Assembly (NCBI RefSeq): GCF_900120005.1
Contig: NZ_LT635454.1
Span: 1-64,000, forward strand
Reading direction: 5' to 3'
DNA from: Holdemania sp. Marseille-P2844
GTDB taxonomy: Bacteria > Bacillota_I > Bacilli_A > Erysipelotrichales > Erysipelotrichaceae
DNA: 64,000 nucleotides
Shown in pieces: positions 22,629 through 57,206 of this stretch. The position numbers and the translations under genes were made by a program. Within the stretch, counting starts at the first letter, position 1. Every line of letters begins with the position of its first letter. The notes under the pieces were generated by a model that did not search any database, was not told the origin of the DNA, and worked only from the letters and a program-made list of their open reading frames with translations.

Positions 22629-22668
22629 TTGACGTAAGCGTATTCACGAAATATATTATGTATATACA
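22629..22668 (+). promoter_or_regulatory. Locus 1 promoter with GntR-type palindrome
   Basis: TTGACG (22629-22634) and TATATT (22652-22657) are 17 nt apart. A perfect palindrome TGTATATACA at 22659-22668 covers the likely transcription start. HutC-subfamily GntR regulators often bind GTNTANAC-type dyads, and the operon encodes such a regulator at 27818-28522. Confidence 0.65.
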
Positions 22669-22702: not shown

Positions 22703-23809
22703 ATGGAAAAACCGACGATGGCTGGATATATTCTGGATCAAGGCCGGGCACTTCGTCAGTCGTTTGCCGAAAGAGCCTGTTTCGTCAATCCGATGATTGA
22801 ATTGTTCCTGAATCAAGATATCCGGAAAGTTTATTTTCTGGGTTCAGGAACAAGCTATCATGCGGCGCTGAGCTTTAAGAACTGGTTTGAAAAATACCTG
22901 AAGGTGGAAGCGGAAGTCGTGATTCCGACGGTATTTACGAATTATACGCAGATCAATAACAATGAGATCTATCAGCCGCATCAGATTCTGGTCGTCGGCA
23001 TCAGTCAGTCAGGCACCAGCGTTTCCACGGTGGAGGCGATGCGCAAAGCTAAAAATGCGGGCTACTTTACCGTTGCGCTGACGGAAGCGTTGTCCAGCCT
23101 GATCACCCGCGAGGTCGACGTCGTCGTGCCGTTAACCTGCGGCAAGGAAGAAATCCCGATCGAAACCCGAGGCTACATCATCACGCTGCTGACCGGTTAT
23201 CTGTGGGCTGTTGAAATTGCCTCGGCGCTGGGACAGCTGGAGAAAGCGCAAAGCGAGCAGAAACTGCAGGAAGCGGAAACGATGCTCGAGCATTTCGATG
23301 CGTTGATCGAAGAAGTCCAGCAATGGATCGACCGCAATCAGCCGGAGCTGCTGGACATGAAAAAGGGGCATATCGCCGCTTATGGAACAAATTATCCAAC
23401 CGCGCTGGAAGGCGTTCTGAAAATGTATGAAACCTTCCACAAGCCGCTGAGCGCCTATGAATTGGAGGAACTGATCCACGGGCCGCAGATGGCGTTCGAC
23501 GATCAAACCTACCTGTATTTCATCGCAAGCAATGAAGTTGAACGCACGCGGATTCCACTGTTTCTGGACTGGATCCGGGAGAATGAAGTGACCGAGCACG
23601 TCTTTGTCTTTTATGCCGATCAACAAGCAACAAATCCGAAGGATCTGCATTTCCGCAGTCCGATCGCGCCCGACTTGAGTCCGCTGGCCTTCGTTGTTCC
23701 CTTCCAGCTGATGGCGGCCCGTAATTGTGAGGAAATCGGCTACGACACCAGCGTCTATCCGCCGAAACGCCGGGCGTTCGCTCATAAGAAACCGGAGGAA
23801 CAAGCATGA
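22703..23809 (+). CDS. SIS-domain sugar-phosphate deglycase/isomerase (locus 1, first copy)
   Basis: 368 residues with two SIS folds. The first contains VYFLGSGTSYHAAL and GISQSGTSVST, the phospho-sugar binding loops. The second contains GTNYPTALEGVLKM and YELEELIHGPQ, where Glu and His are the expected catalytic and lid residues. The length and the link to a mannose-family PTS resemble GfrF/GfrE of Salmonella (fructoselysine- and glucoselysine-6-phosphate deglycases) and AgaS. It belongs to an ETRGY subgroup shared with the locus 2 SIS protein. First gene of the operon, RBS AGGAGGAG; it overlaps EIIA by 4 nt. Exact substrate unknown. Confidence 0.85.
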   Translation: MEKPTMAGYILDQGRALRQSFAERACFVNPMIELFLNQDIRKVYFLGSGTSYHAALSFKNWFEKYLKVEAEVVIPTVFTNYTQINNNEIYQPHQILVVGISQSGTSVSTVEAMRKAKNAGYFTVALTEALSSLITREVDVVVPLTCGKEEIPIETRGYIITLLTGYLWAVEIASALGQLEKAQSEQKLQEAETMLEHFDALIEEVQQWIDRNQPELLDMKKGHIAAYGTNYPTALEGVLKMYETFHKPLSAYELEELIHGPQMAFDDQTYLYFIASNEVERTRIPLFLDWIRENEVTEHVFVFYADQQATNPKDLHFRSPIAPDLSPLAFVVPFQLMAARNCEEIGYDTSVYPPKRRAFAHKKPEEQA

Positions 23810-24228
23810 ATCAATTTCTGATCGCCACTCATTCCACGCTCGCCGAAGGGCTGGCCAACGCGATTCATTTCTTCAACAGCGACGCCGCTAACATTCATTA
23901 TATCAACGCCTATGTCGAGGATAATGAATTTGAAAAAGCACTGCGTGCCAAGCTGGCGGCAATGGAACCGGGCAACCTTGTCATTCTGACCGACCTGGCC
24001 GGAGGCAGCGTGAATCAGATCGCTGCGAAGCTGATGCGGGAAATCCCGTTTGTGCTGGTCACAGGCGTCAACTTTCCGTTAGTGCTGGAAATGGTTTATC
24101 AGAGCGAAGACATTACACCGGAGCTGGCCGCGCAGATCGTCGAGTGTGCAAGAGCGGAAATGATGTGCATGAACACGCTGAACGCTGAAGCTGAAGAAGC
24201 AGATCTAACCGAGGACGACGAGCTGTAA
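23806..24228 (+). CDS. PTS mannose-family EIIA component (locus 1)
   Basis: 140 residues of the mannose-type EIIA fold (EIIA-Man). Phosphorylation His9 lies in LIATHSTLAEG, and LTDLAGGSVNQIAA is the second conserved loop. It accepts phosphate from HPr and passes it to EIIB. The start codon overlaps the SIS stop (ATGA), so translation is coupled. A 12-residue acidic tail follows the domain. It is the first of four adjacent PTS subunit genes. Confidence 0.93.
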   Translation: MNQFLIATHSTLAEGLANAIHFFNSDAANIHYINAYVEDNEFEKALRAKLAAMEPGNLVILTDLAGGSVNQIAAKLMREIPFVLVTGVNFPLVLEMVYQSEDITPELAAQIVECARAEMMCMNTLNAEAEEADLTEDDEL

Positions 24229-24291
24229 ACAAAATCATTGAGGTAATGACCTGAACTGAATCAGGCGTTATAAAAAGGAAAGGAGGATTTT

Positions 24292-24789
24292 ATGATTATT
24301 TTAGTCAGAGCGGACGACCGGTTAATTCACGGCATGGTGGCTGTGTCCTGGACTTCCGCGATCAAGCCGGAAACGATTCTGGTAGCCAACGACGAAGCGG
24401 CAGGGGACAGCTTTAAGGCCGCGACGATGAAACTGGCCAAACCGGCGGGCGTCAAACTGATCATCAAGACCCGCGATGATTCGATCAAGGCGCTGAACAA
24501 TCCGATCAACGACCGGAAAAAAATATTCCTGGTCACGGAAACCGTCGAGGATGCCTGCTACATCTGGGAACGCGTCAAGGGGATCGCCAAGCTCAACATC
24601 GGCACGGCCGGCGTCAACAAGAAGCCGGGCGAAGACTACATTCCGACGCTGCCGCAGGTCTTCATGACGCAGAAGGAATTTGAATGCGCCAAGAAAATGG
24701 CCGACGCCGGTGTGGAAGTCTTTGCGCAGATCACACCGTCTCAGGACCGCATGAACTTCAAAGACATTGAAAAAATATTTGCCAAATAA
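24292..24789 (+). CDS. PTS mannose-family EIIB component (locus 1)
   Basis: 165 residues. The N-terminal signature VRADDRLIHGMVAVSW carries the phosphorylated His13, and the fold continues with LVANDEAAGD and KLAKP. It receives phosphate from EIIA and gives it to the incoming sugar at the EIIC-EIID channel. RBS is AAAGGAGGA. It follows EIIA by 63 nt and precedes EIIC by 25 nt. Confidence 0.94.
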   Translation: MIILVRADDRLIHGMVAVSWTSAIKPETILVANDEAAGDSFKAATMKLAKPAGVKLIIKTRDDSIKALNNPINDRKKIFLVTETVEDACYIWERVKGIAKLNIGTAGVNKKPGEDYIPTLPQVFMTQKEFECAKKMADAGVEVFAQITPSQDRMNFKDIEKIFAK

Positions 24790-24814
24790 AAAATTATAAG
24801 GAGGGCAAAAACTT

Positions 24815-25582
24815 ATGCTTCAGGGATTCTTAGTCGCGCTCGTCGCAACCTTGATCTACATGGAAAGCCGCATCGGCGGTCAGCACATGCTGGACCGGCC
24901 AATTCTCATCGGCCCGATCGTCGGCCTGATCATGGGGGATTTCACCATGGGCCTGATCATCGGCGGTAATCTGGAACTGGTCTGGATGGGCTTAGTCGGT
25001 ATCGGAACATCCACGCCGCCGGATGTCGTTGTCGGCAGTGCGCTGGCCACTGCGCTGGCAATCAAAACCGGCGCTTCCTACGAAACCACGCTGGCCCTGG
25101 CGATTCCAATCGCACTGCTGGCCCAGGTCGGTTCCATCGGCGTCTGCATCCTCAACACCACCTTCGCGCACCGCGCTGACAAATGCGCCGACAAGGGCGA
25201 CTGGAAGGGCGTTGAAATGTCCAACTGGATGGGCAGCGCGCTGTACTTCGTCTTCAAATTCACGATGATTTTCTTAGGCTTCTTGATCGGCGGCGACGTC
25301 ATCACGGCGATCGTCAACAACATTCCGGCCGTTATCCAGTCCGGTTTGGCTCAGTCCGGCAACCTGCTTCCGGCGTTAGGAATCGCGATGTTGATTCAGC
25401 TGACCTTTGACAAGAAGTTCGCGGCGTTCTTATTCCTGGGCTTCGCTTTAGTCGCTTTCTTCAACGTCAGCACGATTGCCGCAGCGGTGATCGGCGTAAT
25501 CTGCGCTTATGTTTACTACCAGTTCGCTCCGAGCGGCAAGTCCGGCTCCATGAGCGCCAGCGATGAAAGTGAGGAACTGTAA
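24815..25582 (+). CDS. PTS mannose-family EIIC component (locus 1)
   Basis: 255 residues, a multi-pass membrane protein with EII-Sor/EIIC features: GGQHMLDRPILIGPIVGLIMGD and GGNLELVWMGLVGIGTSTPPD. Together with EIID it forms the sugar channel. RBS is AAGGAGGG. Its end is followed within 2 nt by the EIID start, so the two are made together. Confidence 0.94.
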   Translation: MLQGFLVALVATLIYMESRIGGQHMLDRPILIGPIVGLIMGDFTMGLIIGGNLELVWMGLVGIGTSTPPDVVVGSALATALAIKTGASYETTLALAIPIALLAQVGSIGVCILNTTFAHRADKCADKGDWKGVEMSNWMGSALYFVFKFTMIFLGFLIGGDVITAIVNNIPAVIQSGLAQSGNLLPALGIAMLIQLTFDKKFAAFLFLGFALVAFFNVSTIAAAVIGVICAYVYYQFAPSGKSGSMSASDESEEL

Positions 25583-25583
25583 G

Positions 25584-26405
25584 ATGACGATCGGCATGAA
25601 GAAATTAAGCTCGAAAACCTTAAAGAAAGTTTATAATCGTCACTATCAATTATTGGGATGCTTCAACTATGAACGCCAGATGTCGACAGGCTACGCCTGG
25701 ACGATGATGCCCGCTATCCGCGAGCTGTACGGCGAAGATGAAGCGAAGATGAAGGCCGGCGTCAAACGCCACCTGGAATTCTTCAACTGCGCGACCACAC
25801 CGAGTCCATTTATCATCGGGATCACCTGCGCGATGGAGGAACAGTGCGCCAGCGCCCCGGACGGCGAATTTGACGTCGCTTCGATCAACTCCGTCAAGGC
25901 AGCTCTGATGGGACCGTTAGCCGGCATCGGTGACAGCTTCTTCTGGGGTACCTTCCGCGTCATCGGCGTCGGCGTTGGCGCGCCGTTAGCGGTCGCCGGC
26001 AACATCTTAGGTCCGATCCTGTATTTCCTGATCAACTTTATTCCATCGGAAATCGTCCGCCGCGTCGGCTTCAAAATCGGTTATGAAGGCGGCAGCGAAT
26101 TCCTGACCCGGATTTCCGAAGACGGCACACTGAATAAGCTGACGGAAGCTGCCCGCATCATGGGCCTGGTCGTTATCGGCGCGATGATGGCTTCAATGGT
26201 CAACGTCAATCTGGTTACGGTGCTGAATATCAACGGCGCGCAGGTTGTCCTGCAGGAGATCTTTGACGCGATCTGCCCGAAGATTCTGCCGCTGGGTCTG
26301 ACCTTCGCGTGCTACTGGGGCTTACAGAAACGCTATTCCGGTACGGTCATCATGATCGCCCTGCTGGTTCTGGGTGTCCTGGCTGTCGCTTTGGGTCTGT
26401 TGTAG
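25584..26405 (+). CDS. PTS mannose-family EIID component (locus 1)
   Basis: 273 residues. EIID signatures are the N-terminal YNRHYQLLGCFNYERQMSTG, the central CAMEEQCAS, and KAALMGPLAGIGDSFFWGTFRVI. The C-terminal part has membrane segments. The ATG at 25584, just after the EIIC stop, is preferred over codons inside EIIC; a second ATG at 25596 is possible. EIID forms the transport channel with EIIC. Confidence 0.94.
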   Translation: MTIGMKKLSSKTLKKVYNRHYQLLGCFNYERQMSTGYAWTMMPAIRELYGEDEAKMKAGVKRHLEFFNCATTPSPFIIGITCAMEEQCASAPDGEFDVASINSVKAALMGPLAGIGDSFFWGTFRVIGVGVGAPLAVAGNILGPILYFLINFIPSEIVRRVGFKIGYEGGSEFLTRISEDGTLNKLTEAARIMGLVVIGAMMASMVNVNLVTVLNINGAQVVLQEIFDAICPKILPLGLTFACYWGLQKRYSGTVIMIALLVLGVLAVALGLL

Positions 26406-26430: not shown

Positions 26431-27153
26431 ATGAAAAAACAAGAAGTGCTGGAAAGTCTGAAAGACGGCTTAATCGTTTCCTGCCAGGCGGTGCCGGAGG
26501 AACCTCATTATATGGAAGGCATCACCGTTAAATTCGCGGAGTGCGCGGCCTGGGCAGGAGCGAAAGGCATTCGCGCGAATTCCCCGGAGGATATCCGGGC
26601 GATCAAGGCGCAGGTCGATCTGCCGGTCATCGGGATCTGGAAAATTAACCGCAATGTGAAGGACGTTTATTTAACGCCGAATCTGGAAGCGGCGAAAGCG
26701 GTCTGGGAAGCCGGCGCGGAGATCATCGCCGTGCAGGCGACGCATCACTACCGCGACGATGGCAAGCTGGCGTATGAAACGATCCGGGAAATCAAGGAAA
26801 ACATTCCGGAGGCGTTGATCTTCGCCGATGTCAGCACCGCGGAGGACGCGCGGATCGCCGCGGAAATGGGGGCGGATTTCGTCGCTCCGACTTTAGCCGG
26901 GTATACGAAAGCCGGCGCCTTCGACAAGCTGGAAATCAAGGACGCTCCGGATTATATTCTGCTTCGGGATATCGTCGATGCCGTCAAAGGCACCGGCGCC
27001 CGCGTTATCATGGAGGGCAAGGTCGCCACACCGGAGATCGCGGTCCAGTGCCTGTATATGGGGGCTTACGCCGTCGTTGTCGGCAACGCGATTACGCGTC
27101 CGCACATCACGGCCAAACGGTTTGCCCGGGCGCTGAACCGGTTCCATGACTAA
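26431..27153 (+). CDS. NanE-like 2-epimerase with altered active-site motifs
   Basis: 240 residues, a TIM barrel of the N-acetylmannosamine-6-phosphate 2-epimerase family: GLIVSCQAVPEEPHY, GAKGIRANSPEDI, LPVIGIWK (K71) and VIMEGKVATPE (E195), where K71 and E195 match the catalytic Lys and Glu. Two motifs depart from canonical NanE: the LDAT-type strand reads VQAT, and the Arg-rich loop after it reads HHYRDDG. No nanA or nanK is nearby; instead it sits among PTS and SIS deglycase genes. It may epimerise the C2 amine position of a different sugar-6-phosphate. RBS is AGGGGTG; the next gene overlaps it by 8 nt. Confidence 0.82.
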   Translation: MKKQEVLESLKDGLIVSCQAVPEEPHYMEGITVKFAECAAWAGAKGIRANSPEDIRAIKAQVDLPVIGIWKINRNVKDVYLTPNLEAAKAVWEAGAEIIAVQATHHYRDDGKLAYETIREIKENIPEALIFADVSTAEDARIAAEMGADFVAPTLAGYTKAGAFDKLEIKDAPDYILLRDIVDAVKGTGARVIMEGKVATPEIAVQCLYMGAYAVVVGNAITRPHITAKRFARALNRFHD

Positions 27154-27817
27154 TCCGATCCTCTGGATCACGCTGCTGTGTTTGTTCGGCAGCGTGATCT
27201 ATAAAAAATGGGTGAGCGAGAAAGCGCTGCGGAAGCTGTATACATTCAAAATGAAACAGGATACGGACAGCTTTTTCAAACTGCTCGATTCCCCTTACTG
27301 CCGATTTAATTTTTCCAAGGTGTCGCTGTTGATGATGAAGCTGAACTATTTTATTGATCTGCAGGATCATGATCAGGTTCGCGCGACCTACGCGCAGTTC
27401 GCTTCGCTGAAGATGAATGCGGATGAAAAGATCGCGCTTGATTCCCGGATGTTCGGCTACGCCCTGCAATTTCGCGACCGCGCGCTGGCCGAGACCTGCC
27501 GCGACCAGCTGATGCCGTTGTTAAATGGGAAAAAGGGGCAGAAAGCGGAACTGATCCGCGGGGAAGTGGAACAGCTCGACCGTATTTACATCCAGAAAGA
27601 CACCACGTTAATCCAGGAGCTGACCGAGGCGCTGCCGGAATGTGAAAACGACGAAATCAAGTCGCTGATCGCCTTCCGTCTGGCTAAACTTTACCATTAT
27701 AAAAACCAGCCGGAACAGGTAGAGATTTACCTGAACCAGGCAATGAGGTATACTAATAATGATAAGAATAGAAAGTCGCTGATGGCGATGATCAGCGATC
27801 CCTCGGAGCTGGATTAA
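27146..27817 (+). CDS. Membrane-anchored helical-repeat protein of unknown function
   Basis: 223 residues: one N-terminal membrane segment (about 5-20, PILWITLLCLFGSVIY) followed by basic residues and a long helical, soluble part that reads like degenerate TPR units (KLYHYKNQPEQVEIYLNQAM near the end). I do not recognise a family. It overlaps the NanE-like gene by 8 nt and ends directly before the GntR ATG, so it is firmly part of the operon. A role in assembling or regulating the membrane PTS is a guess. Confidence 0.65.
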   Translation: MTNPILWITLLCLFGSVIYKKWVSEKALRKLYTFKMKQDTDSFFKLLDSPYCRFNFSKVSLLMMKLNYFIDLQDHDQVRATYAQFASLKMNADEKIALDSRMFGYALQFRDRALAETCRDQLMPLLNGKKGQKAELIRGEVEQLDRIYIQKDTTLIQELTEALPECENDEIKSLIAFRLAKLYHYKNQPEQVEIYLNQAMRYTNNDKNRKSLMAMISDPSELD

Positions 27818-28522
27818 ATGAATAAATATGAACAAATAATTAATTACTACCGTCAACAGATCGTCGATAAAGTGCTCAAGCCGGGCGATCAACTACCTAA
27901 CGAAATTGAAATTGCGCAGGCGTTTAAGGTTTCGCGCATGACCGCGAACAAGGCCCTGAACATTCTGGCCCAGGAAGGCTGTATCCGCCGGGTCAAAGGA
28001 CAGGGGAGCTTTGTCGACAACCAACAGATCGTCAAGGCGATCGGCAACCTGACGAGTTTTACCGACGACATCACGAAGATGGGGCAGAAGCCGGGCGCGA
28101 TTCTGATCGAATATCGGATCGAGCGGGCGGATAAACTGCCGAAGCTGATGGAAAAAATGAAGCTGAGTCCGGACGATGCGATTCATTATATCGTGCGCAT
28201 CCGCACGGCGGATGAAACGCCGATCGCGATCAGCTATACCTATCTGTCGCAGAAATACATGTCGAGCGTGGATCTGCGGAAGATCGAAGGCTCGGTCTAT
28301 CAGATCATGCAGGAAAACGGGGCGCAGTTTAAGTACAGCGACGGCGAGATGACGGCGATGATGCCGACGGAAGAAGAAAAGCGGTTGTTGAAAATCAAGG
28401 ATGTGGCGTTATTGCGCAACATCACCTGGATGTACGACCAGGACGATGATCTGATCGAATACACGGAGATGCTGTATATCGGTTCCCGTTATAACTATTA
28501 CTACCGGACAGTCAATCAATAA
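27818..28522 (+). CDS. GntR/HutC-family regulator with UTRA domain (locus 1)
   Basis: 234 residues. An N-terminal winged helix (YEQIINYYRQQIVDKVLKPG, VSRMTANKALNILAQEG, VKGQGSFV) precedes a UTRA effector domain (about 75-230). HutC-type regulators usually sense a phosphorylated sugar made by the pathway they repress. It begins at the base after the previous stop codon and is followed 12 nt later by a second SIS gene. The palindrome at 22659-22668 in the operon promoter is the likely operator. Confidence 0.9.
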   Translation: MNKYEQIINYYRQQIVDKVLKPGDQLPNEIEIAQAFKVSRMTANKALNILAQEGCIRRVKGQGSFVDNQQIVKAIGNLTSFTDDITKMGQKPGAILIEYRIERADKLPKLMEKMKLSPDDAIHYIVRIRTADETPIAISYTYLSQKYMSSVDLRKIEGSVYQIMQENGAQFKYSDGEMTAMMPTEEEKRLLKIKDVALLRNITWMYDQDDDLIEYTEMLYIGSRYNYYYRTVNQ

Positions 28523-28534: not shown

Positions 28535-29623
28535 ATGACGGAAAAAAACTGGGATATGTACCAGTATATCCTGGAATCCAAGCCGGCGGTGCGCAACATC
28601 GTCGAGCACCAGGATGAAATATTCAAAGAAGCGCTGGATTACTGTGCAGACGGCACGATCGAACAGATCTATGTCGTCGGCTCAGGCACATCCTATCACG
28701 GCGCGCTGGCTTGTAAAAAGCTGCTTGAGGATGTGCTGAAGGTTAAGGTCTTTGCCAGCTATCCGATGCAGTTTAAGGACAATGAATTGATTCTGAACCC
28801 GCATACGCTGGTCATTGGAATTTCCCAGGCCGGCCGCAGTTCTTCCACGATCGCGGCGCTGGATAAAGCGCGGAAACTGGGCTTAAAGACGATCGTCGTT
28901 ACCGGCGAGGCCGGCAAGCCGGTCAGCGATCATGCGGACGTCACGATATTGCTGGCAATCGGCATGGAATATGCCGGCCCGAAGACCAAGGGGTATATCG
29001 GCACGATGGCGACGATTATGCTTCTGGGCATGAAGCTGGCGGTGCGTTTAGGCCGGATTTCAGAAGAAGAGAAAACGCGGTTAACGGAACAGATGGTGAA
29101 AACCTGCGACAACATTCCGGAGATTGCGGAACAGGCGAGCCAGTGGTATCTGCGCAATAAGGAAGATCTGCTTCCTTGCCGCCGGATGATTCTGGTGGGC
29201 TATGAAAGCTGTATTTCGGCCATGATGGAAGGCACGCTGAAAATTCTGGAAGCGGTGCGTTACAGCGTCGTCGGCTACGAGCAGGAAGAATTCATGCACG
29301 GCGTATATCATTCGATTCACGAAGACACGATGATGGTTTATCTGGCTTGCCCGGGACAGTATTTTGAACGCTGTCTGCGGATGCGGGATTACTTCGCCCG
29401 CGAGCGGCATAACCCGAACTATGTGATCACTTCGGAGGCTTCCCAGGCTGAGGATCCGCATAATTTCGTTTACCCGTTTGTTAATGATCCGTATTTCGCA
29501 ACGATGGAGTATATTGTGCCGCTGCAGGTGCTGGCGAGAAAATTATCGCTGGATCTGGGCATAGACTGCAACGTTGCCAGCGATCCGGATTTCCACAAAA
29601 AGATGGGCAGCTATACTTACTAG
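28535..29623 (+). CDS. SIS-domain sugar-phosphate deglycase/isomerase (locus 1, second copy)
   Basis: 362 residues with two SIS domains: IYVVGSGTSYHGAL and GISQAGRSSST, then a second half with MMEGTLKILEAVRYSVVGYEQEEFMHGVYHS. It carries the variant PKTKGY where the first locus 1 SIS has ETRGY, so the two represent different subgroups. The Salmonella gfr operon likewise has two SIS deglycases of different specificity. RBS is AAGGAGG. Last gene of the operon, closed by a terminator. Substrate not known. Confidence 0.85.
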   Translation: MTEKNWDMYQYILESKPAVRNIVEHQDEIFKEALDYCADGTIEQIYVVGSGTSYHGALACKKLLEDVLKVKVFASYPMQFKDNELILNPHTLVIGISQAGRSSSTIAALDKARKLGLKTIVVTGEAGKPVSDHADVTILLAIGMEYAGPKTKGYIGTMATIMLLGMKLAVRLGRISEEEKTRLTEQMVKTCDNIPEIAEQASQWYLRNKEDLLPCRRMILVGYESCISAMMEGTLKILEAVRYSVVGYEQEEFMHGVYHSIHEDTMMVYLACPGQYFERCLRMRDYFARERHNPNYVITSEASQAEDPHNFVYPFVNDPYFATMEYIVPLQVLARKLSLDLGIDCNVASDPDFHKKMGSYTY

Positions 29624-32914: not shown

Positions 32915-33739
32915 TTATCCCATTGGGAAGAAACCGACCGCCGTTAATAAAATGCCTAAGCCTAACAGAAGGAATAACAGCTTGTTGACGCTGACGCCTT
33001 TCTGGATGTAATGATAAACAACGACGGATAAGATCAACGGCAGTAAATTCGGCATGATGCTGTTGAGAACATCCGCCAGAATGAACGAACCGCCGCCCAT
33101 GTTCAGCTCCAGGGAAACCGGCACCGCGACGATCGCCGGCACCAGTCCGCCGATGACGACCAGACCCAAAATCTTTGCGGCCTCCGTCACTTTTTCAAGA
33201 GTGCCGTCAGCCTGGATTTTCGCCAGGAATTCCCGGCCACCCTGATACCCCAGCTTAAAGCCATAGACACGGGTCAAGGTTGACGGCAGTAAATTTAACA
33301 ACAGATACAGCACGACCCCGAGCAGATTGCCGGCCGCAGCCAGCGGAGCGCCGATCCCGCAGGCGATTACCCGGAACGTTCCCCAGAAGAAGCTGTCGCC
33401 GATCCCGGCTAGCGGTCCCATCAAAGCGATCTTGACGGAGCTGATCGACTGCGGATCAAACGTACCTTCCGGGGCGTTGGCGTATTCCTCTTCCATCGCG
33501 CAGGTGATGCCCAGACAGAACGGTACGAAAGCGCAGGTCGTATTAAACATGACGTTGTGACGGATCAGGGCTTCTTTCAGATCTTCCGGATCCGGATAGA
33601 GTTTCTGCAGCGCCGGAAGCAGGGCGCGCATGTAGGAAATCCCCTGCTGCTTATCGTAGGTATAACACCCCAGCGCCTGATAGGAACGCCAGAATACCTT
33701 ATTCAGTTCCTTTTTTGATAATTGAACCGGATTTGTCAT
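32915..33739 (-). CDS. PTS mannose-family EIID component (locus 2)
   Basis: 274 residues. Signatures: FWRSYQALGCYTYDKQQGISYMRALLPALQKLYPD, GITCAMEEEYANAPEG and KIALMGPLAGIGDSFFWGTFRVI, nearly the same layout as the locus 1 EIID. It is translated 2 nt after EIIC. It forms the sugar channel with EIIC. It is the last gene before the terminator. Confidence 0.94.
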   Translation of the reverse strand: MTNPVQLSKKELNKVFWRSYQALGCYTYDKQQGISYMRALLPALQKLYPDPEDLKEALIRHNVMFNTTCAFVPFCLGITCAMEEEYANAPEGTFDPQSISSVKIALMGPLAGIGDSFFWGTFRVIACGIGAPLAAAGNLLGVVLYLLLNLLPSTLTRVYGFKLGYQGGREFLAKIQADGTLEKVTEAAKILGLVVIGGLVPAIVAVPVSLELNMGGGSFILADVLNSIMPNLLPLILSVVVYHYIQKGVSVNKLLFLLLGLGILLTAVGFFPMG

Positions 33740-33741
33740 GA

Positions 33742-34482
33742 TTAGTCGTCCTCCTCTGCTCTCGGTTTAAATTGATAATAGATGTATGCGCAGACCAGTC
33801 CAGTGAGTGCGACGCCCATCGTGCCCATTCCCAGATAGGTTGGAAGCAGGAAGCCCAGCGCAAAGAAGCCGGCATATTTCCAATCGAACGTAAATTTCAG
33901 CAGAATGCCGATGCCGATCGCAGGCAGGAGCTTGCTAGCGTTGGTCAGACCGTAGCGGACGACGCCTGGAATGGAATCAATGACCGCCTGGATCGCGACG
34001 GATCCGGCCATAAAGCCCAGGGCGATAACGACAAAGTAGACGATGAAATAAATGATGCCTCCGCCGATGCCGGTCCACCAGATCATCTTGGTATCACAGT
34101 TTTCCACCGCTTTGTTCGTCAAGGAAGACAGAACGGCAGAGTTCACCGACGAGATAAACGTATTCATAACGCTGGCCAGCAGCGCGACCGGGATCGCCAG
34201 CGCGACGCCTTCCTCGACGGTCAGACCACTGGTGATGACCAGCGCCGAGGCCAGCACGCTGCCGCTGACAACCTCTGTCGGTGCAGCGCCGATCTGAACG
34301 ACGCCGGCCCAGATCAACTCCAGCGTGCCGCCGATGATGACACCTTGCTTTAAATCTCCTAACAAAAGTCCGACGAGCGTACACAGCCAGATCGGCCGCG
34401 CGATCATCTGCTGCCCAAACCAGGATTGTTCGATCCGTCCGTAACCCGCGACAAGACCGACGAGAATAGCTTGTAAAATCAT
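33742..34482 (-). CDS. PTS mannose-family EIIC component (locus 2)
   Basis: 246 residues, polytopic, with GQQMIARPIWLCTLVGLLLGD and GGTLELIWAGVVQIGAAPTEVVSG, the EIIC-Man/Sor signatures. It lies between EIIB and EIID with spacings of 15 and 2 nt. RBS is GAAGGAG. Confidence 0.94.
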   Translation of the reverse strand: MILQAILVGLVAGYGRIEQSWFGQQMIARPIWLCTLVGLLLGDLKQGVIIGGTLELIWAGVVQIGAAPTEVVSGSVLASALVITSGLTVEEGVALAIPVALLASVMNTFISSVNSAVLSSLTNKAVENCDTKMIWWTGIGGGIIYFIVYFVVIALGFMAGSVAIQAVIDSIPGVVRYGLTNASKLLPAIGIGILLKFTFDWKYAGFFALGFLLPTYLGMGTMGVALTGLVCAYIYYQFKPRAEEDD

Positions 34483-34497
34483 ACCCTTTTCTCCTTC

Positions 34498-34998
34498 TTA
34501 TTCAAATTTTTGAGCGAAATCCGTAAAATCAACGGCCGGCATTTGCGGAGTGATCTGCGCGAACACCTCGACGCCCCGATCATGAATGCGTTTCAGACAT
34601 GCGAATTCTTCCGGGGAGGCAAAGACGCCGTCGCTGATCTCCACTTTTCCTTCGGTTACCCGACCCTTTGTGCCGTCGACTTCAGGGCCGACATTGACGC
34701 GGCGAATCTCCGGACATTGGCTGACGAGCGCTTCCGCGTCGGCGATTGTGCCGACCGTGATAAAGATTTTCTTCGCTTTGTATTTCGGTCCATTCAAGCG
34801 GTCAACCGCCTTGGCCAGCGTCCAGACGTACATGTCCACATTGGCCGGCTTGGCCAGCTTTAACGTCATTGTGTGAAAACTGTCGTTGGCTGCCGCATCG
34901 TTGGCAACCACTAAAACGTTCGGCTTGAGTTCCCCGACCCAGGTTACGGCGACCATGCCGTGAACCAGCCGTCCGTCGACGCGCAATAAACTGATCAT
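34498..34998 (-). CDS. PTS mannose-family EIIB component (locus 2)
   Basis: 166 residues with LLRVDGRLVHGMVAVTW (active His13) and LVVANDAAANDSF. The family Asp-Asp/Glu of the motif is Asp-Gly here. The ATG at 34998 follows AAAGGAAAATC, 14 nt after the EIIA stop; the frame open further upstream lies inside EIIA in another frame. Closest in pattern to the locus 1 EIIB. Confidence 0.93.
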   Translation of the reverse strand: MISLLRVDGRLVHGMVAVTWVGELKPNVLVVANDAAANDSFHTMTLKLAKPANVDMYVWTLAKAVDRLNGPKYKAKKIFITVGTIADAEALVSQCPEIRRVNVGPEVDGTKGRVTEGKVEISDGVFASPEEFACLKRIHDRGVEVFAQITPQMPAVDFTDFAQKFE

Positions 34999-35012
34999 AT
35001 TGATTTTCCTTT

Positions 35013-35411
35013 CTAGTCGTCCTCTTCCCCGCAATGAAGCAACAAGTCGTTCATGTAACAGGTTTGACGGCAGGCATTGGCGATGATTTCTTTTAACTGC
35101 GACGCATCCAGATCGGTTTCCGTGAAAGCACATTCCAGAATCATCGCTAAATTCATGCCGGTGATCAGATGAAAGGCATGATCCCGCAGGTTTTTGAAAA
35201 AGATCTGATTGACGGAACCGCCGTACAGATCGGTAAAGACAATGCAGTTTTGGCCGGCGCATTGCTGCAGGATCTGTTCAGCCTTGGCCTCAAAGCCGGT
35301 TTCCTGAACGGTTTGTTCAAGAATGATGATGTTTCGGGCGCCGAAAAATTCCAGCGTTTCCTTCATGCCCGACGCAAGCCGGCCATGGGCGGCGATGATA
35401 ATTTGATTCAT
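35013..35411 (-). CDS. PTS mannose-family EIIA component (locus 2)
   Basis: 132 residues with IIIAAHGRLASGM (His9) and FTDLYGGSVNQIFFKN. First gene of the minus-strand operon. RBS is GAAAGGGGG. The promoter lies at 35472-35500 and is shared in a divergent region with the SIS-GntR operon. Confidence 0.93.
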   Translation of the reverse strand: MNQIIIAAHGRLASGMKETLEFFGARNIIILEQTVQETGFEAKAEQILQQCAGQNCIVFTDLYGGSVNQIFFKNLRDHAFHLITGMNLAMILECAFTETDLDASQLKEIIANACRQTCYMNDLLLHCGEEDD

Positions 35412-35471
35412 TCGATGTTTTTTCCCCCTTTCAATGGATGAAACTGGATGAGAGCTGCCTGATTTAAACTC

Positions 35472-35526
35472 AGTATAATCTATAAATATATATTTGTAAA
35501 TATAAAACTTGTAAAAATATATATTA
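35472..35526 (-). promoter_or_regulatory. Locus 2 PTS promoter with palindromic operator
   Basis: Minus-strand -35 TTTACA (35495-35500) and -10 TATACT (35472-35477) are 17 nt apart. The perfect palindrome AAATATATATTT (35484-35495) fills the spacer. A near copy (AAATATATATTA) lies at 35515-35526. A second perfect copy is at 35663-35674 next to the opposite promoter. Confidence 0.7.
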
Positions 35527-35541
35527 AAAATTATAGTAACA

Positions 35542-35551
35542 AATGATTACA
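35542..35551 (+). promoter_or_regulatory. Partial copy of the shared PTS motif
   Basis: AATGATTACA, the first ten bases of the motif found at 22550, 42268 and 54489. It sits in the middle of the 343-nt divergent region. A 10-nt match in AT-rich DNA is weak evidence alone. Confidence 0.3.
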
Positions 35552-35662
35552 TCCTAATATATGACAGATTTGTATGATTTCACGCATATTCCTGACAAAA
35601 AACCGCAGAATATCCTGAATCCTTGGAGAACACAAATTATTTTCAAGAAAGAAATTTATATC

Positions 35663-35706
35663 AAATATATATTTACTGTTGATTTTTGAACGGTATGTGG
35701 TATATT
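35663..35706 (+). promoter_or_regulatory. Promoter of locus 2 SIS-GntR with operator
   Basis: AAATATATATTT (35663-35674) lies just upstream of -35 TTGATT (35679-35684), which is 16 nt from -10 TATATT (35701-35706). The palindrome matches the one in the divergent PTS promoter, so one regulator, probably the GntR protein of this locus, can control both directions. Confidence 0.6.
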
Positions 35707-35754
35707 TGGGATGAGCTGCCCGGTGATTCAAGAAAAAGGAGAACAGAATAAAGC

Positions 35755-36891
35755 ATGGAAAAAGAAAAACTCTCAATGATCGGTCATATTCAGGATACAC
35801 CCCGGGTTTTAAAGAAGGCCTACGCTACCCGCAATGAATATATGACCCGCTTTGTTGACGCTTTTGTCGAGCATGATTTTAAGAAAGTCTATTTCCTGGG
35901 GTCCGGTACTTCCAATCATGTTTCGATGGTTATTAAAAATCTCTTTGTCGAGCTGCTGCACGTTGAAGGCGTTGCCTGCGCACCGACGTTGTTTACCTAT
36001 CATGAGAATCCGAATCCGTCCGGAATTTTTAAGAAAGAAGAAATCTGCGTCATCGGCTTTTCACAGCACGGCGACAGTATCTCAACCTGTGAAGCGGTAA
36101 AAAAAGCTGCGGAGGACGGGTATTTCACCATTGCGGTGACCGAACAATTAAACAGTGTGCTGGAAGAATTGGCTGACGTATACTGTCATTTAGTCTGCGA
36201 AGAAGAAGAAATCGGTCCGGAAACGCGCGGTTATACGGAAACCATCTTCCAGTTTTACATCCAGGCCATTGAGATCGCGCGGCGTAAAAAACTGATTGAT
36301 CAAGCCTATTATCAGCAGTTGGATGAAGCGGCTAAGGCGTTGGCCGACAACCTGGAAATAGTTGTCAATGAGTCGATCGACTGGTATAATCGTAATAAAG
36401 AAGAATTTTATCAAATGACAAAATCCTCTATCGCAGGCTATGGTCTGAACTATCCAACGGCGCTGGAATCACGCCTGAAATTCTTTGAAACGTATTCCCG
36501 GCCGTGTACCGGTTATGAAATGGAAGAACAGATGCATGGACCGATGCGGGCTTACAATCAGGATAACTATATCTTTATGATCGCTTCCGAGGGCCGGAAA
36601 GAACTGGAACGCTTGAAGGAGTTAGTTCCGTATTATAAAGACGTCTTTACAGAGCATGTATTTGTGGTCACCTGTGAGGAGGATGTGGCAAGTTCAGAAA
36701 GAGATCTGAAATTCTCAGTGAAAACGACGGATCTGCTTTCGCCGATTCTCTATGTGATTCCTTTTCAGGTGCTTTCAGCTCTGATCTGCGAAGACACGGG
36801 AATCGACACGAAGGTCAGTCCGGTCAAAAAGCGTTACGTCTCGTCGCATTATCCAAGCCTCAGACATGGAAATGTGGAAGAAACGAAATAA
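35755..36891 (+). CDS. SIS-domain sugar-phosphate deglycase/isomerase (locus 2)
   Basis: 378 residues with two SIS domains: VYFLGSGTSNHVSM, then GFSQHGDSIST, where the usual SQSG reads SQHG. PETRGYTETIF places it with the first locus 1 SIS. The second half has GLNYPTALESRLKFFETY and YEMEEQMHGPMRAY. It should act on the phosphorylated product delivered by the divergent EIIA-D genes. The His in the phosphate loop is unusual and may alter specificity. The gene precedes GntR by 63 nt with a hairpin between. Confidence 0.83.
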   Translation: MEKEKLSMIGHIQDTPRVLKKAYATRNEYMTRFVDAFVEHDFKKVYFLGSGTSNHVSMVIKNLFVELLHVEGVACAPTLFTYHENPNPSGIFKKEEICVIGFSQHGDSISTCEAVKKAAEDGYFTIAVTEQLNSVLEELADVYCHLVCEEEEIGPETRGYTETIFQFYIQAIEIARRKKLIDQAYYQQLDEAAKALADNLEIVVNESIDWYNRNKEEFYQMTKSSIAGYGLNYPTALESRLKFFETYSRPCTGYEMEEQMHGPMRAYNQDNYIFMIASEGRKELERLKELVPYYKDVFTEHVFVVTCEEDVASSERDLKFSVKTTDLLSPILYVIPFQVLSALICEDTGIDTKVSPVKKRYVSSHYPSLRHGNVEETK

Positions 36892-36899
36892 ACAGAACA

Positions 36900-36928
36900 C
36901 GGCAATTCTGAGAACAAAAGAATTGCCG
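36900..36928 (+). repeat. Hairpin between SIS and GntR genes
   Basis: CGGCAATTC (36900-36908) and GAATTGCCG (36920-36928) form a perfect 9-bp stem with an 11-nt loop and no T run. It could stabilise the upstream message or partially attenuate transcription. Confidence 0.6.
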
Positions 36929-36954
36929 AAAGTTTGAAAAGCAGGGGGTAAAAC

Positions 36955-37725
36955 ATGCCGAAACTTCCAAAATATGTGGAAATCGTGAATTACTTTAAAG
37001 AGAAAATCGAAAGTGGAGAGATTGCTAACGATGAACCGTTTCCGCCGGAAAGCGAGATCTGCGCCAGGTTTTCCACCAGTCATATGACGGTTTCCCGGGC
37101 CATGAACGAATTAGCCGTGCATGGGTTTATCAAACGGATAAAAGGCAAGGGCACGTTCGCAGATGACAAATTCAAGGCGAAGATCAAAAAAAGCTCGGTG
37201 CGGACTGAAAGCATTACGGATATGATCCGCAACGCCGGTTTGGAACCGTCGGCTGAATTGATTAAATATGGAATTATCAAAGGTAAGGAAGCTCCGGACA
37301 TCGCTGCTCTGCTGCATGTAGCGGAGGACGACTTTCTGCATTTCTTCATCCGGACGCGTTTCGGCAACGGCAGTCTGATCTGTATTTCGTATTCCTATAT
37401 TTCGCAGAATATTCTGCCGACGATGGATATTAAACGGCTGGAAGGTTCGCTGAACCAGTACATCGAAGAATTGGGGATTGAGCGGTCCTATGGGTATATG
37501 GAACTGGGTGCCTGTCTGCCAAGCGCGGAACAGGCCAAACTGATCGGCTCCAATCATGTTCCTCTGCTTCGTCAGACGATCCTGTGGAATGTCAACGACG
37601 AACCTTTTGAATTAACAACCCACTATTTTGTTGGAGATAAGTTTACGATCACGCAGGACAAGATCACGGCGCGGCCAACACAAACGACGCTGTCGGATCA
37701 CGCGCGGGAACCGCTGGTCAAGTAA
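36955..37725 (+). CDS. GntR/HutC-family regulator with UTRA domain (locus 2)
   Basis: 256 residues: winged helix (YVEIVNYFKEKIESGEI, TSHMTVSRAMNELAVHG, IKGKGTFAD) followed by a UTRA domain. A GGGGG box precedes the ATG. It likely represses both directions of locus 2 through the AAATATATATTT palindromes and is released by a phosphorylated substrate. The C-terminal 20 residues are a polar extension compared with the locus 1 regulator. Confidence 0.9.
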   Translation: MPKLPKYVEIVNYFKEKIESGEIANDEPFPPESEICARFSTSHMTVSRAMNELAVHGFIKRIKGKGTFADDKFKAKIKKSSVRTESITDMIRNAGLEPSAELIKYGIIKGKEAPDIAALLHVAEDDFLHFFIRTRFGNGSLICISYSYISQNILPTMDIKRLEGSLNQYIEELGIERSYGYMELGACLPSAEQAKLIGSNHVPLLRQTILWNVNDEPFELTTHYFVGDKFTITQDKITARPTQTTLSDHAREPLVK

Positions 37726-39125: not shown

Positions 39126-39194
39126 CAGCTTCTGACGCTGAACTGGACTTTCTATACTAAAGGAAGAATGAAAGTCAGAGCGGAGGGGAAAGGG

Positions 39195-40682
39195 ATGGAG
39201 AAGTATCAGGAATCAATGAAACACTTTTACCGGCAGGCCCTGTATCTCTGTCTGGCGATGATCGCGCAGCAGCTGATTCTCAACCTGATCACGATTATCG
39301 ACAACGTGATGGTCGGCCGGTACGGCGATCTCTTCGTTTCATCGGCTGCGATTGTCAACCGCCTGTTTACGGTGCCGAGCAGTTTCCTCAACGGCATTCT
39401 GGCGGGCGGGGTTGTGTTTCTCGCCCAATATGCCGGAATTGATCAGCCGCAGCGGATGGTTCAGACGTTCCGCTTTTCTCTGACATCTTCGATCGCGCTG
39501 TTGTTTCCGTTTATCCTGGCTGGCCTTGCCTTCCCGCAAACGCTGGTCCGGCTGTTTTCCTCCGATCCGGCGCTGGAAGGCCCGGCGGCGGTCTATCTTC
39601 AGCTGCTGGCGCTGTCGATGATTCCTTATGTGCTGTCGCAGGCGATTGCCAATGCGATGCGGGCGATCGGACAGGTGCGCCTTCCGCTGTGGGGCAGCTG
39701 CGCCGCCGTCATCGTTAAGATTTTGGCGAATCTGATTTTGCTGGAAGAGATCCCTGGCGGCATGTTGGGGGCGGGTCTGGCGATGCTGCTGTGCCGGTGT
39801 GCGGAAGCGCTGATCATGATGGTCCTGATGAAACGCTCGCGGTGCGTCTATGCGCAGGCGTGGAAGACGACGCCGAAAATGCCGCGTTCGCTGGCAATTC
39901 AGATTGGAAAAACGATGCTTCCGATCGGATTGAACGAATTATTCTATGGCTTGGGGTTGGCGATGTTATTTAAAGGCTACTCGTCGTTCAGTACGCCGAT
40001 GACGGCCGGATATGCCATTGCGATGACCTACTATGAGCTGTTCCGGGTGCTTTTTCCCGCGGCCGGCACGGTGCTGACCATTCTGGTCGGTCCGGTTCTG
40101 GGGCAGGGAAAGAAAGCGGAGGCCAGGGAGGTTGTGCGGCGTGTGTTCAAACTGGCGCTGGGACTTTCCATCGCGTTTGGAATCCTGATTGATCTCTGCC
40201 GCTGGACAATCCCGCTGATCTACACAGGTTCTGCGCTTTCGCTGCGGACGGCGGATCAGCTAATGCAGATCATGGCACTGTTATTCCCGCTGGCGACCGG
40301 ACATTTTCTTGTGTATTTCGTCTTCCGCAGCGGCGGGGACAGCCGGTCGATCTATCTGATTGATTCGCTGTTCATGTGGATCGTTCCGATTCCCTTGTTG
40401 ATCGGATTGACGAGGGGAACCGACTTGCCGCTGACTGCGGTTTACTTTCTGGTTGAAATCAGTTATGTACTGAAATGTCTGTTAGCGCTGGGTTTGTTGA
40501 AAAAGGAACGATGGCTTAACAATCTGACCCAGCCGGAGGTTTCGCCAAAAGAGCTGTCGGCTTTGAAGCGGGAAATTGAAAACCGCAGCCCGGCAGTACC
40601 ACAGACAAACCGGATCGAAGCGTTTGCGGAAAACCCGGATGCTCCAACTTTGAAAATCCCGCATTCCGGATCGAATAGTTAA
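39195..40682 (+). CDS. MATE-family efflux transporter, second copy
   Basis: 495 residues with about twelve membrane segments. MATE features near the start: LYLCLAMIAQQLILNLITIIDNVMVGRYG, then SSAAIVNRLF and LAGGVVFLAQYAG. A hydrophilic C-terminal tail of about 50 residues extends beyond the last segment. The ATG at 39195 follows GGAGGGGAAAGGG. It has terminators on both sides. The substrate is unknown; it is not closely similar to the copy at 12583. Confidence 0.87.
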   Translation: MEKYQESMKHFYRQALYLCLAMIAQQLILNLITIIDNVMVGRYGDLFVSSAAIVNRLFTVPSSFLNGILAGGVVFLAQYAGIDQPQRMVQTFRFSLTSSIALLFPFILAGLAFPQTLVRLFSSDPALEGPAAVYLQLLALSMIPYVLSQAIANAMRAIGQVRLPLWGSCAAVIVKILANLILLEEIPGGMLGAGLAMLLCRCAEALIMMVLMKRSRCVYAQAWKTTPKMPRSLAIQIGKTMLPIGLNELFYGLGLAMLFKGYSSFSTPMTAGYAIAMTYYELFRVLFPAAGTVLTILVGPVLGQGKKAEAREVVRRVFKLALGLSIAFGILIDLCRWTIPLIYTGSALSLRTADQLMQIMALLFPLATGHFLVYFVFRSGGDSRSIYLIDSLFMWIVPIPLLIGLTRGTDLPLTAVYFLVEISYVLKCLLALGLLKKERWLNNLTQPEVSPKELSALKREIENRSPAVPQTNRIEAFAENPDAPTLKIPHSGSNS

Positions 40683-42785: not shown

Positions 42786-44357
42786 ATGTTACTAAACGCA
42801 CTGCTTCTGTCGTTGATCTATCTCGTGTCGAGAACCGATATGATCAACGGTTACATGATGCTGACCAAACCGATCGTTCTCGGACCGCTGGTCGGCCTGG
42901 TTTTGGGGGATCTGCAAGCCGGAATTCTGATCGGCGCCACGCTGGAGCTGGCCTTCATCGGCGTCATGAACATCGGTATTTCGGTATCCATGGACGTTTC
43001 CATCGCAACGATCGTCGGCGGCGGGCTGGCGATTCTGTCCGGTCAGGACGCGGCGTTCGCGCTGACCATCGCAATTCCGACCGGCATTCTGTTCAATATG
43101 TTAAAAACGTTCATCCGCGTCGTCATGCAGTACTGGATCGTCGAGATGCAGAAAGCCTGCGAAATCGGCGATTACAAGAAGGTGGAACGGTATCACTGGC
43201 TGACCTGGTGGCTGTTCAGTCTGATCATGATGATTCTGGTCTTCGCGTCCATCTATTTAGGCACCGGCGCAGTTCAGGCGGTCGTCGATTTCATTCCGCA
43301 GTGGATCTACAACGGCTTGAAGGTCGGCACGTCGATCTTGCCGGCACTGGGCTTCGCGATGCTGCTGAATATGATCTGGACCCGCGAAATCGGCGCGTTC
43401 TACTTCATCGGCTTCGTGCTGTCAGCCTTCCTGGGCATGACCAACACGGGCGTCGCGATCCTGGGCGCAGCCTTCGCGGTGATCGCCTTCTTCTTCATCA
43501 AGTCGGAGGACAAGGAAGCGGCGGAAGAGGAAGTCACGGACGAAAAGCGCGAAACCAAGCGTCTGAGCCGCAAGGCGTTAATGGGCGTGTACTGGCGCGC
43601 ACATACGCTGGAAGCTTCGTTCAACTATCAGAATTATCAGGGCTCGGGTTATTGCTACGCGATGATTCCGGCGTTAAAAGAACTCTATCCGGATAAGAAG
43701 GATCTGGCGATGGCGCTCAGCCGTCACTATGAATTCTTCAACACGACGCCGCAGGTATCGACACTGATCTTCGGTATCTCCTGCGCGATGGAAGAAGAAA
43801 TCTCGAGCAATCCGGATCTGGCTCCGGCTTCGGTCAACGCTGTCAAAGCAGCGCTGATGGGACCGCTGGCCGGCATCGGCGATTCGCTGTTCCAGGGCAC
43901 CTTCCGCGTCATCGCGGCCGGCGTCGCGGCGCAGTTAGGCTTACAGGGCAACGTGCTGGCGCCTTTCGTCTTCATTCTGCTCTACAACGCACCGCATTTC
44001 CTGGCCCGCTGGTATCTGATGTGGAAGTCGTATGATTTCGGAAGCAAGTTTATCAACAAGATCTACAAGTCGAACATCATGGACAAGCTGACGCTGTGCT
44101 TCGGCATCCTGGGCCTGATGGTGATCGGCGCGATGACGATGTCGATGGTTTCGGTTTCGACGCCGTTAGTCATTCAGTTTGGCCAGATGGAACCGTTAGC
44201 GCTGCAGTCGCTGTTTGATGAAATTCTGCCGGGCCTGCTGCCGCTGTGCATTACGTGGGCGACCGCCTGGCTGTTAAAGAAGCAGGTCAACATGCTGCAC
44301 ATCATGATCGGCATGTTCATTCTGGGCATCGTCTGCAACGTCATCGGCATTCTCTAA
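42786..44357 (+). CDS. Fused PTS EIIC-EIID protein (locus 3)
   Basis: 523 residues in one uninterrupted frame. Residues 1-240 are EIIC (MLTKPIVLGPLVGLVLGD, GATLELAFIGVMNIG). A charged linker follows at about 239-261 (acidic, then Lys/Arg). Residues 262-523 are EIID (YWRAHTLEASFNYQNYQG, CAMEEEISSN, KAALMGPLAGIGDSLFQGTFRVI). In the other three loci these are two adjacent genes. The fusion keeps both domains full length, so it is likely active. RBS is AAAGGGG. Confidence 0.93.
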   Translation: MLLNALLLSLIYLVSRTDMINGYMMLTKPIVLGPLVGLVLGDLQAGILIGATLELAFIGVMNIGISVSMDVSIATIVGGGLAILSGQDAAFALTIAIPTGILFNMLKTFIRVVMQYWIVEMQKACEIGDYKKVERYHWLTWWLFSLIMMILVFASIYLGTGAVQAVVDFIPQWIYNGLKVGTSILPALGFAMLLNMIWTREIGAFYFIGFVLSAFLGMTNTGVAILGAAFAVIAFFFIKSEDKEAAEEEVTDEKRETKRLSRKALMGVYWRAHTLEASFNYQNYQGSGYCYAMIPALKELYPDKKDLAMALSRHYEFFNTTPQVSTLIFGISCAMEEEISSNPDLAPASVNAVKAALMGPLAGIGDSLFQGTFRVIAAGVAAQLGLQGNVLAPFVFILLYNAPHFLARWYLMWKSYDFGSKFINKIYKSNIMDKLTLCFGILGLMVIGAMTMSMVSVSTPLVIQFGQMEPLALQSLFDEILPGLLPLCITWATAWLLKKQVNMLHIMIGMFILGIVCNVIGIL

Positions 44358-44470
44358 TCGTAGTCTTCAAACGGCTTATGTCTCCCTGTCCGTGGACTGA
44401 AGCGTCCATTTTGGGTCAAGTTTAGCGCGTTTTAAAGCGGCAGGGCAGGCAGACCGCATTGCACAAGGAG

Positions 44471-44510
44471 GGGAACAAGGCTTTTGCGAAGGGCCTTGCT
44501 TCCTCTTTTC
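44471..44510 (+). terminator. Intra-operon stem-loop, possible attenuator
   Basis: GGGAACAAGGC (44471-44481) pairs with GCCTTGCTTCC (44493-44503, one mismatch), followed by TCTTTTC. It lies in the 182-nt gap between EIICD and SIS and could reduce expression of the later genes. Confidence 0.5.
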
Positions 44511-44539
44511 CATGAAAAACATAAGGAGGAATTGTCGAA

Positions 44540-45628: not shown

Positions 45629-45649
45629 AAAACAAGGAGGAACAAGCGA

Positions 45650-46129
45650 ATGATAAAATTACTGCGTGTTGACGACCGTCTGATCCACGGCGCGGTCGGA
45701 TTTTCCTGGACGAAGCAGCTGTCGATCAACATGATCATCCTTGCCAACGACGCGATCGCCAAGGATGATTTCCAGAAGATGACGCTGGATATCGCCAAGC
45801 CGCGGGGAACGAAGCTGGTCTGCGAAAGCGTGGAGAAAGCGAAGGCGCTGATCCGCACTCACTTAAAAAGCAGCACCAACGTCATGGTCATCACCAACAA
45901 CATCCCTGACGCCGCCGATATCCTCACCAGCATCCCGGAAATCGGTTCGCTGAATCTGGGCGGAATCCGCAAGAACGCTGAAACGAAGGAGAACCTGATC
46001 GGCGCGATCGCGGTATCGCAGAAGGATATCGAGCTGTGCAACAAGCTGGTCAGCGACGGCTTTGAGGTCGAGCTGCGCCTGATTCCGGATGGGAAGAAGA
46101 CGTACTTCAAGGATTATAAGCTGCAGTAG
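45650..46129 (+). CDS. PTS mannose-family EIIB component (locus 3, first copy)
   Basis: 159 residues with LLRVDDRLIHGAVGFSW (His13), ILANDAIAKDDF and DIAKPRG. RBS is AAGGAGG. It is 51 nt before the PRD regulator ATG. It would phosphorylate the sugar carried by the fused EIICD. Confidence 0.93.
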   Translation: MIKLLRVDDRLIHGAVGFSWTKQLSINMIILANDAIAKDDFQKMTLDIAKPRGTKLVCESVEKAKALIRTHLKSSTNVMVITNNIPDAADILTSIPEIGSLNLGGIRKNAETKENLIGAIAVSQKDIELCNKLVSDGFEVELRLIPDGKKTYFKDYKLQ

Positions 46130-46180
46130 CACATCATGCAGGGGCAACCCTGCATTCTTTTAAGAGAGGAGGGGAAGCGG

Positions 46181-56569: not shown

Positions 56570-56587
56570 TTTTTATCAGCGACGCTG

Positions 56588-56615: not shown

Positions 56616-56643
56616 CTTTGTTTCTTAAAAACAACAGTGTTCC

Positions 56644-57205: not shown

Positions 57206-57206
57206 A

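Follow-up and report, generated by a model that had tools for sequence, protein, structure and literature searches.

A diverged NanE-family epimerase within a conserved cassette of SIS enzymes and a mannose-family PTS in Holdemania: possible catabolism of sugars with an amine at C2

What does a NanE-family epimerase do when its neighbours are a mannose-family PTS and two SIS enzymes? The question is raised by a gene at positions 26431 to 27153 of the window, by which we mean the whole stretch of 64,000 nucleotides from Holdemania sp. Marseille-P2844 that was analysed. Annotation pipelines label this gene as a ManNAc-6-P epimerase, and the use of sialic acid or ManNAc would then be credited to the host bacteria. 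An earlier note on this DNA had instead placed it in a deglycase operon and proposed that it processes the epimers of Heyns products. It appears that the epimerase belongs to a self-contained set of genes for the breakdown of a sugar with an amine at C2, a reading to which we assign a probability of about 0.52. The data point to a pathway for amine-substituted sugars, possibly fructose-derived glycation products from the diet, and if this is true the cassette is an example of the re-use of a sialic acid enzyme. The cassette in the window consists of the following genes:

22703-23809, plus strand: SIS1, SIS enzyme of the GfrE/GlmS-isomerase type (PF01380)
23806-24228, plus strand: PTS EIIA, mannose family (NCBIfam)
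24292-24789, plus strand: PTS EIIB (NCBIfam)
24815-25582, plus strand: PTS EIIC (NCBIfam)
25563-26405, plus strand: PTS EIID (NCBIfam; ORF as listed, the true start is probably slightly further in)
26431-27153, plus strand: NanE-family epimerase of the "VQAT" subfamily (PF04131, catalytic residues, AlphaFold2 model, clade)
27146-27817, plus strand: hyp223, one N-terminal hydrophobic segment followed by a soluble domain (hydropathy)
27818-28522, plus strand: GntR/UTRA regulator (PF00392, PF07702)
28535-29623, plus strand: SIS2, likely deglycase/deaminase of a 2-amino-aldose 6-phosphate (cassette conservation, neighbours of its relatives)

The earlier note was thus right to describe the neighbours as two SIS enzymes (22703-23809 and 28535-29623) and a PTS (EIIA, B, C and D, 23806-26405). 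It had also placed the ORF correctly in the NanE family: the gene has an ATG start and encodes 240 amino acids on the plus strand, and its product scores above the cut-off of both the Pfam NanE profile PF04131 (157.7 bits, cut-off 27) and the NCBIfam profile NF002231, "putative ManNAc-6-P 2-epimerase" (233.8 bits, cut-off 189). The protein of H. filiformis is identical. The AlphaFold2 model is a TIM barrel (mean pLDDT 90), and its first 17 matches in the PDB are all NanE chains; the fold is shared with NanE of S. aureus (6vva/7mfs) and C. perfringens (4utu), with TM scores of about 0.84-0.91 and about 36-41% identity. Judged from its sequence, the protein is nevertheless a diverged NanE and not an ordinary one. 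In a tree of 71 homologues, ten distinct sequences form one clade with a support of 100/100, apart from canonical NanE, whose members share at least 69% identity with one another and no more than 55% with any sequence outside. The clade comprises sequences from Holdemania, two other Erysipelotrichaceae, Clostridiaceae A68, Oscillospiraceae ABMPRH_151_3 and the Bacillaceae, the latter being Bacillus ISL-18, Neobacillus drentensis (two copies) and a third Neobacillus-family genome. An isolated oddity can be dismissed, as both clade and cassette recur in four or more families.

The active site of S. aureus NanE (SaNanE) is formed by Gln11, Arg40, Lys63, Asp124, Glu180 and Arg208 (PMC8482478). All six residues align with identical residues of the epimerase (Q19, R48, K71, D133, E195 and R223), and all six are invariant in the ten clade members. 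The claim that the catalytic Lys and Glu are kept therefore holds (K71 and E195 align with K63 and E180), and extends to the four further residues Q19, R48, D133 and R223. With this set retained, the enzyme should carry out C2 inversion of an open-chain aldose 6-phosphate. A degenerate or dead enzyme is rejected: the catalytic residues are invariant, and the epimerase, with 73-83% identity outside Holdemania, is more conserved than its SIS and EIIA neighbours. Two stretches of the gene set it apart from canonical NanE:

26734-26754, plus strand: codons 102-108 (Q102 to R108), the end of strand 4 and the next loop, with a clade-specific D to Q change and H106
26911-26925, plus strand: codons 161-165, a loop insertion after Y158, 5 residues extra relative to C. 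perfringens NanE

The change from LDAT to VQAT seen by the earlier note is real. Gln is found at position 102 in all ten clade members and in none of the 95 other homologues, which have Asp (94) or Glu (1). The position corresponds, by alignment, to Asp94 of SaNanE at the end of strand 4, which lies outside the residues mutated in the consulted passages of PMC8482478. That source does describe an Asp124Gln mutant as inactive, but Q102 is not this killing change, since the Asp in question belongs to strand 5 and is still present, as D133. The Arg loop, also said to be changed, differs indeed (HHYRDDG against KRKRPNG in C. perfringens NanE), whereas R108 itself is kept in 10/10 sequences; H106 is present throughout the clade and in 0/95 others. 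Furthermore, a clade-specific Arg (R74) and N75 follow directly after the catalytic Lys. In total, 23 positions are conserved in at least nine of the ten clade members and in at most 5% of the 95 other homologues, and many of them lie on loops at the active-site face (H26, M28, R74, N75, Q102, H106, A161, G162, F164 and N219).

In SaNanE, Tyr149 packs on the acetamide methyl (PMC8482478). Its equivalent Y158 is kept, and the loop insertion, in which A161, G162 and F164 are invariant (10/10), lies beside the N-substituent pocket; residues 161-167 have a low pLDDT in the model. Such a pattern of clade-specific residues would fit an altered N-substituent. PMC8482478 also gives two NanE signature motifs, X-P-X-I-G-I-X-K-Z with a basic Z and V-G-U-A-X-T-R with Ser or Gly at U. 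Both are broken here: Z is I72 in 10/10 sequences, a weak criterion since many other homologues also have a non-basic residue, and U is N219 in 10/10, where 89 of the 95 others have G or S. N219 lies in the phosphate loop, but need not abolish binding of the 6-phosphate, because in SaNanE the phosphate is held via backbone NH groups (PMC8482478).

Ten loci had enough flanking sequence for a comparison of gene order (the window, L055, L056, L058-L063 and L152). EIIA-B-C-D, the epimerase and SIS2 are found together and in that order in all ten, and since these loci come from several families the arrangement is not due to chance. SIS2 recurs at 57-65% identity in all cassettes outside Holdemania. 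Nine of the ten loci also have SIS1 with an identity of at least 40%, the second SIS of L063 being more diverged. In the window hyp223 starts before the epimerase stop, with an overlap of 8 bases, and the two genes are translationally coupled; hyp223 follows the epimerase in nine loci, with an apparently truncated form in H. massiliensis, and is missing from L058. The window protein matches no Pfam or NCBIfam profile. Small proteins with one hydrophobic segment also recur in other operons with SIS2 relatives and a mannose PTS (L172, L178, L182, L183, L188 and L189). The transporter forms a group of its own, since EIIC and EIID are 74-78% and 70-80% identical within the cassette, versus at most 46% and 48% to the other operons compared. 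Of 193 Neobacillus-family genomes, three encode SIS2 (E <= 1e-60), and precisely these three also encode the VQAT NanE; no other full-length NanE was found in Neobacillus drentensis. In this soil member of the Bacillaceae the entire cassette is duplicated (L060 and L061, about 25 kb apart), with closely similar copies.

The epimerase was said not to lie with nanA or nanK, and this applies to all ten cassettes: around it they hold EII, SIS, hyp223 and GntR genes only, with no deacetylase, NanA or NanK, and neither nagA nor nagB as neighbours. Canonical NanE genes, in contrast, have nan or nag genes beside them.

The promoter region of the operon contains two elements:

22629-22657, plus strand: sigma-70-like promoter TTGACG-17-TATATT (consensus scan, 10/12 matches)
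22660-22667, plus strand: GTATATAC, candidate HutC-type GntR operator, immediately 3' of the -10 box

The 8-mer GTATATAC precedes the operon in 9/9 loci examined, whereas the pattern GTnTAnAC is expected 0.08 times per 420 bp. The regulator gene lies inside the operon in Holdemania and is divergent upstream in the other cassettes. In a 13-base form the operator has a single match in H. massiliensis, located at the cassette operon. The window genome has two such matches, one at the cassette and one on contig C14 among polysaccharide-type genes; the latter was taken as a chance match.

A mannose-family EIIABCD together with two SIS enzymes is also encoded by gfrABCDEF of Salmonella, Enterococcus and Klebsiella, which serves the use of fructoselysine and glucoselysine, and the EIID of the cassette is 46% identical to the gfr EIID of E. 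faecium. GfrE cleaves glucoselysine-6-P and GfrF fructoselysine-6-P (text of PMC12675984; its figure legend swaps E and F). As references we used annotated gfr-like operons on plasmids of E. faecium and Klebsiella, which combine a sigma-54 regulator with EIIABCD and two SIS genes; GfrE and GfrF were assigned in them by gene order. SIS1 and SIS2 are 24-30% identical to GfrE (SIS1 27-30%) and share with it the catalytic-type Glu and His, both kept in SIS1, yet they belong to other clades than GfrE. Both score to the GlmS isomerase-domain and NagB-II profiles. Neither showed a significant match to GfrF (best E 0.001, 14-18% identity), and GfrF matches 3eua, a putative fructose-amino-acid-6-P deglycase, whereas SIS2 does not. 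SIS1 and SIS2 would thus be classed with the GfrE/GlmS type and not with the Amadori type (GfrF/FrlB).

Relatives of SIS2, 35-58% identical, are found in mannose-PTS operons of Erysipelotrichaceae that lack the VQAT epimerase. In five loci (L178, L183, L184, L185 and L189) they hold the position of GfrE beside a GfrF/FrlB-type deglycase, and two of these loci (L184 and L189) also have a GfrR-like regulator; in two others (L186 and L187, the latter from the window genome) they adjoin NagA. Because its relatives adjoin either GfrF-type deglycases or NagA, the SIS2 group would work on amino-sugar phosphates. The five deglycase loci also make "deglycase-like operon" a reasonable label, and to that extent the description of the operon in the earlier note stands, although it is not gfr itself. 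A standard gfr operon is rejected: the cassette lacks a deglycase of the GfrF/FrlB branch and carries a GntR/UTRA regulator with a conserved GntR-type operator instead of the LevR/GfrR-type sigma-54 regulator GfrR. Compared with gfr it also has an epimerase and a membrane protein in addition. In the five operons with GfrF and a SIS2 relative, genes for MATE-type transporters and HAD phosphatases seem to recur, and the window has a MatE gene at 39168-40682. In L181 (8058-11043), EIIABCD and a SIS2 relative precede a HAD-like gene and one for a type II asparaginase, an arrangement that recalls the use of fructose-asparagine.

For the substrate class, the direction of the reaction and the division of labour between the SIS enzymes we infer the following. 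EIIABCD would import the sugar and phosphorylate it at C6. Next, by normal NanE chemistry, the VQAT NanE would convert the manno and gluco forms of the open-chain 6-phosphate into each other at C2: K71 would take the C2 proton, E195 activate the C5 hydroxyl and R48 stabilise the enolate. SIS2, as a GfrE/GlmS-type enzyme, would isomerise the product and hydrolyse the C2-N bond to yield fructose 6-phosphate and the amine, and SIS1 would perhaps perform the same reaction on a related adduct. Since SIS chemistry needs an amine and not an amide, and the cassette contains no deacetylase even though NagA homologues are numerous (more than ten over the cut-off) elsewhere in the genome, the substrate is most likely non-acetylated: tentatively an N-alkylated adduct of the Heyns type or, with less probability, a free hexosamine.

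A Heyns-type substrate would make the VQAT NanE a C2 epimerase that interconverts, for instance, mannoselysine-6-P and glucoselysine-6-P, or the adducts of another amino acid. We consider this plausible and a good, testable hypothesis, but hold it only tentatively, at odds well short of even. The Heyns reaction was said to yield both gluco- and manno-configured adducts, and it does: one synthesis with lysine gave 39% glucosyl and 19% mannosyl product (PMC8172402), and such a pair is also found in PMC12431902. The GfrE-type SIS enzymes of the cassette, the relatives of SIS2 beside GfrF-type deglycases and the longer loop at the N-substituent pocket agree with a substrate of this kind, and the added R74 could meet its carboxylate. 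On the other hand, the cassette holds no marker of the use of lysine or another amino acid, and with no GfrF/FrlB-type enzyme it differs from a standard glycation operon.

The earlier statement that no such step was known in the gfr and frl pathways overlooks the E. coli fructoselysine 3-epimerase, which works on the same principle at C3. Reportedly, as described by Wiame and Van Schaftingen in 2004, this enzyme enables the use of psicoselysine. It is not known to be related to NanE and inverts a ketosamine at C3, turning psicoselysine into fructoselysine, whereas C2 of an aldosamine 6-phosphate is proposed here; in both cases an adduct that the deglycase cannot use would be turned into one that it can, and the frl enzyme is a precedent for an epimerase that feeds a deglycase. 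A reference to it is listed in PMC3781023. If the Heyns-type reading is true, one cassette with a gluco-specific deglycase consumes both epimers, and the catabolism of glycation products would gain its first C2 epimerase, present in gut Erysipelotrichaceae and soil Bacillaceae. No such C2 epimerase was found described in a literature search that covered few subscription journals, nor did the literature searched contain a description of the VQAT variant.

That the enzyme is an ordinary ManNAc-6-P 2-epimerase seems rather unlikely. The mannose-type PTS would then import ManNAc, with NagA supplied from elsewhere and the SIS enzymes acting as GlcN-6-P deaminases. ManXYZ and NanE form such a pair in E. 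coli. The best structural and sequence matches of the epimerase are ManNAc-6-P epimerases, and the retained catalytic residues and acetamide contacts (the equivalents of K63 and Tyr149) would also suit ManNAc-6-P. Deacetylation could be carried out by a NagA encoded outside the cassette: NagA genes occur elsewhere in the six genomes searched, and the window genome has more than 10 NagA homologues over the TIGR00221 cut-off and several just below it, with a similar picture in H. massiliensis. However, none of the cassettes contains NagA, while it does adjoin related SIS enzymes in the acetylated-sugar operons L186 and L187, both published signature motifs are broken, and the D to Q change, R74, N219 and the loop insertion are fixed throughout the clade.

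About as probable is the use of a free hexosamine, the other form of the main reading, with the PTS importing mannosamine or glucosamine, the epimerase converting ManN-6-P to GlcN-6-P and a SIS deaminase releasing Fru-6-P. No deacetylase would be necessary, and the similarity of SIS1 and SIS2 to the GlmS isomerase-domain and NagB-II profiles agrees with this. Free mannosamine, however, is a rare nutrient, and two different SIS enzymes and a lengthened N-substituent loop would be left unexplained. Quite improbable is another reaction on a 6-phosphate that uses the retained Lys and Glu with no net C2 epimerisation (e.g. an isomerisation before the SIS step), as every residue of the epimerase mechanism is kept, even though genes for a glycyl radical enzyme or a sulfatase are found beside the closest sister clades.

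These neighbours of the sister clades indicate that this NanE branch has been recruited to different pathways. The nearest large clade, about 50-56% identical to the VQAT NanE and found in Erysipelotrichaceae and Parabacteroides, keeps the Asp (IALDCT) and lacks the loop insertion. Its members (L042-L054 and L145) lie with a glycyl radical enzyme similar to pyruvate formate-lyase and with the activase of this enzyme, joined in Parabacteroides by a ROK kinase, and neither SIS enzymes nor EIIABCD are found beside them; this clade may represent another recruitment of NanE into a different pathway. In the Neobacillus family, a further NanE-like clade (L149-L151) is accompanied by EIICB-like and EIIA-like PTS proteins and a sulfatase, and in L149 and L150 by a radical-SAM-like protein, which suggests a pathway for a sulfated amino sugar.

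The window genome encodes three further NanE paralogues (C11:52048, C11:321282 and C17:87385; loci L035, L036 and L037). All three directly adjoin mannose-family EIIC and EIID genes, as would also be in line with an ordinary ManNAc-6-P epimerase beside such a PTS, and in the paralogue at C11:52048 the conserved Arg208 is replaced by Asn (AITN). Within the window, three more loci carry genes of a mannose-family PTS: EIIABCD with a third SIS gene (SIS3) and a GntR/UTRA gene (32915-37725), an EIIC-EIID fusion with a GfrE-clade SIS (44540-45628), EIIB and a PRD regulator (42786-48100), and EIIB, EIIC and EIID with a NagA-like amidohydrolase at 59274-60563 (54590-60563).
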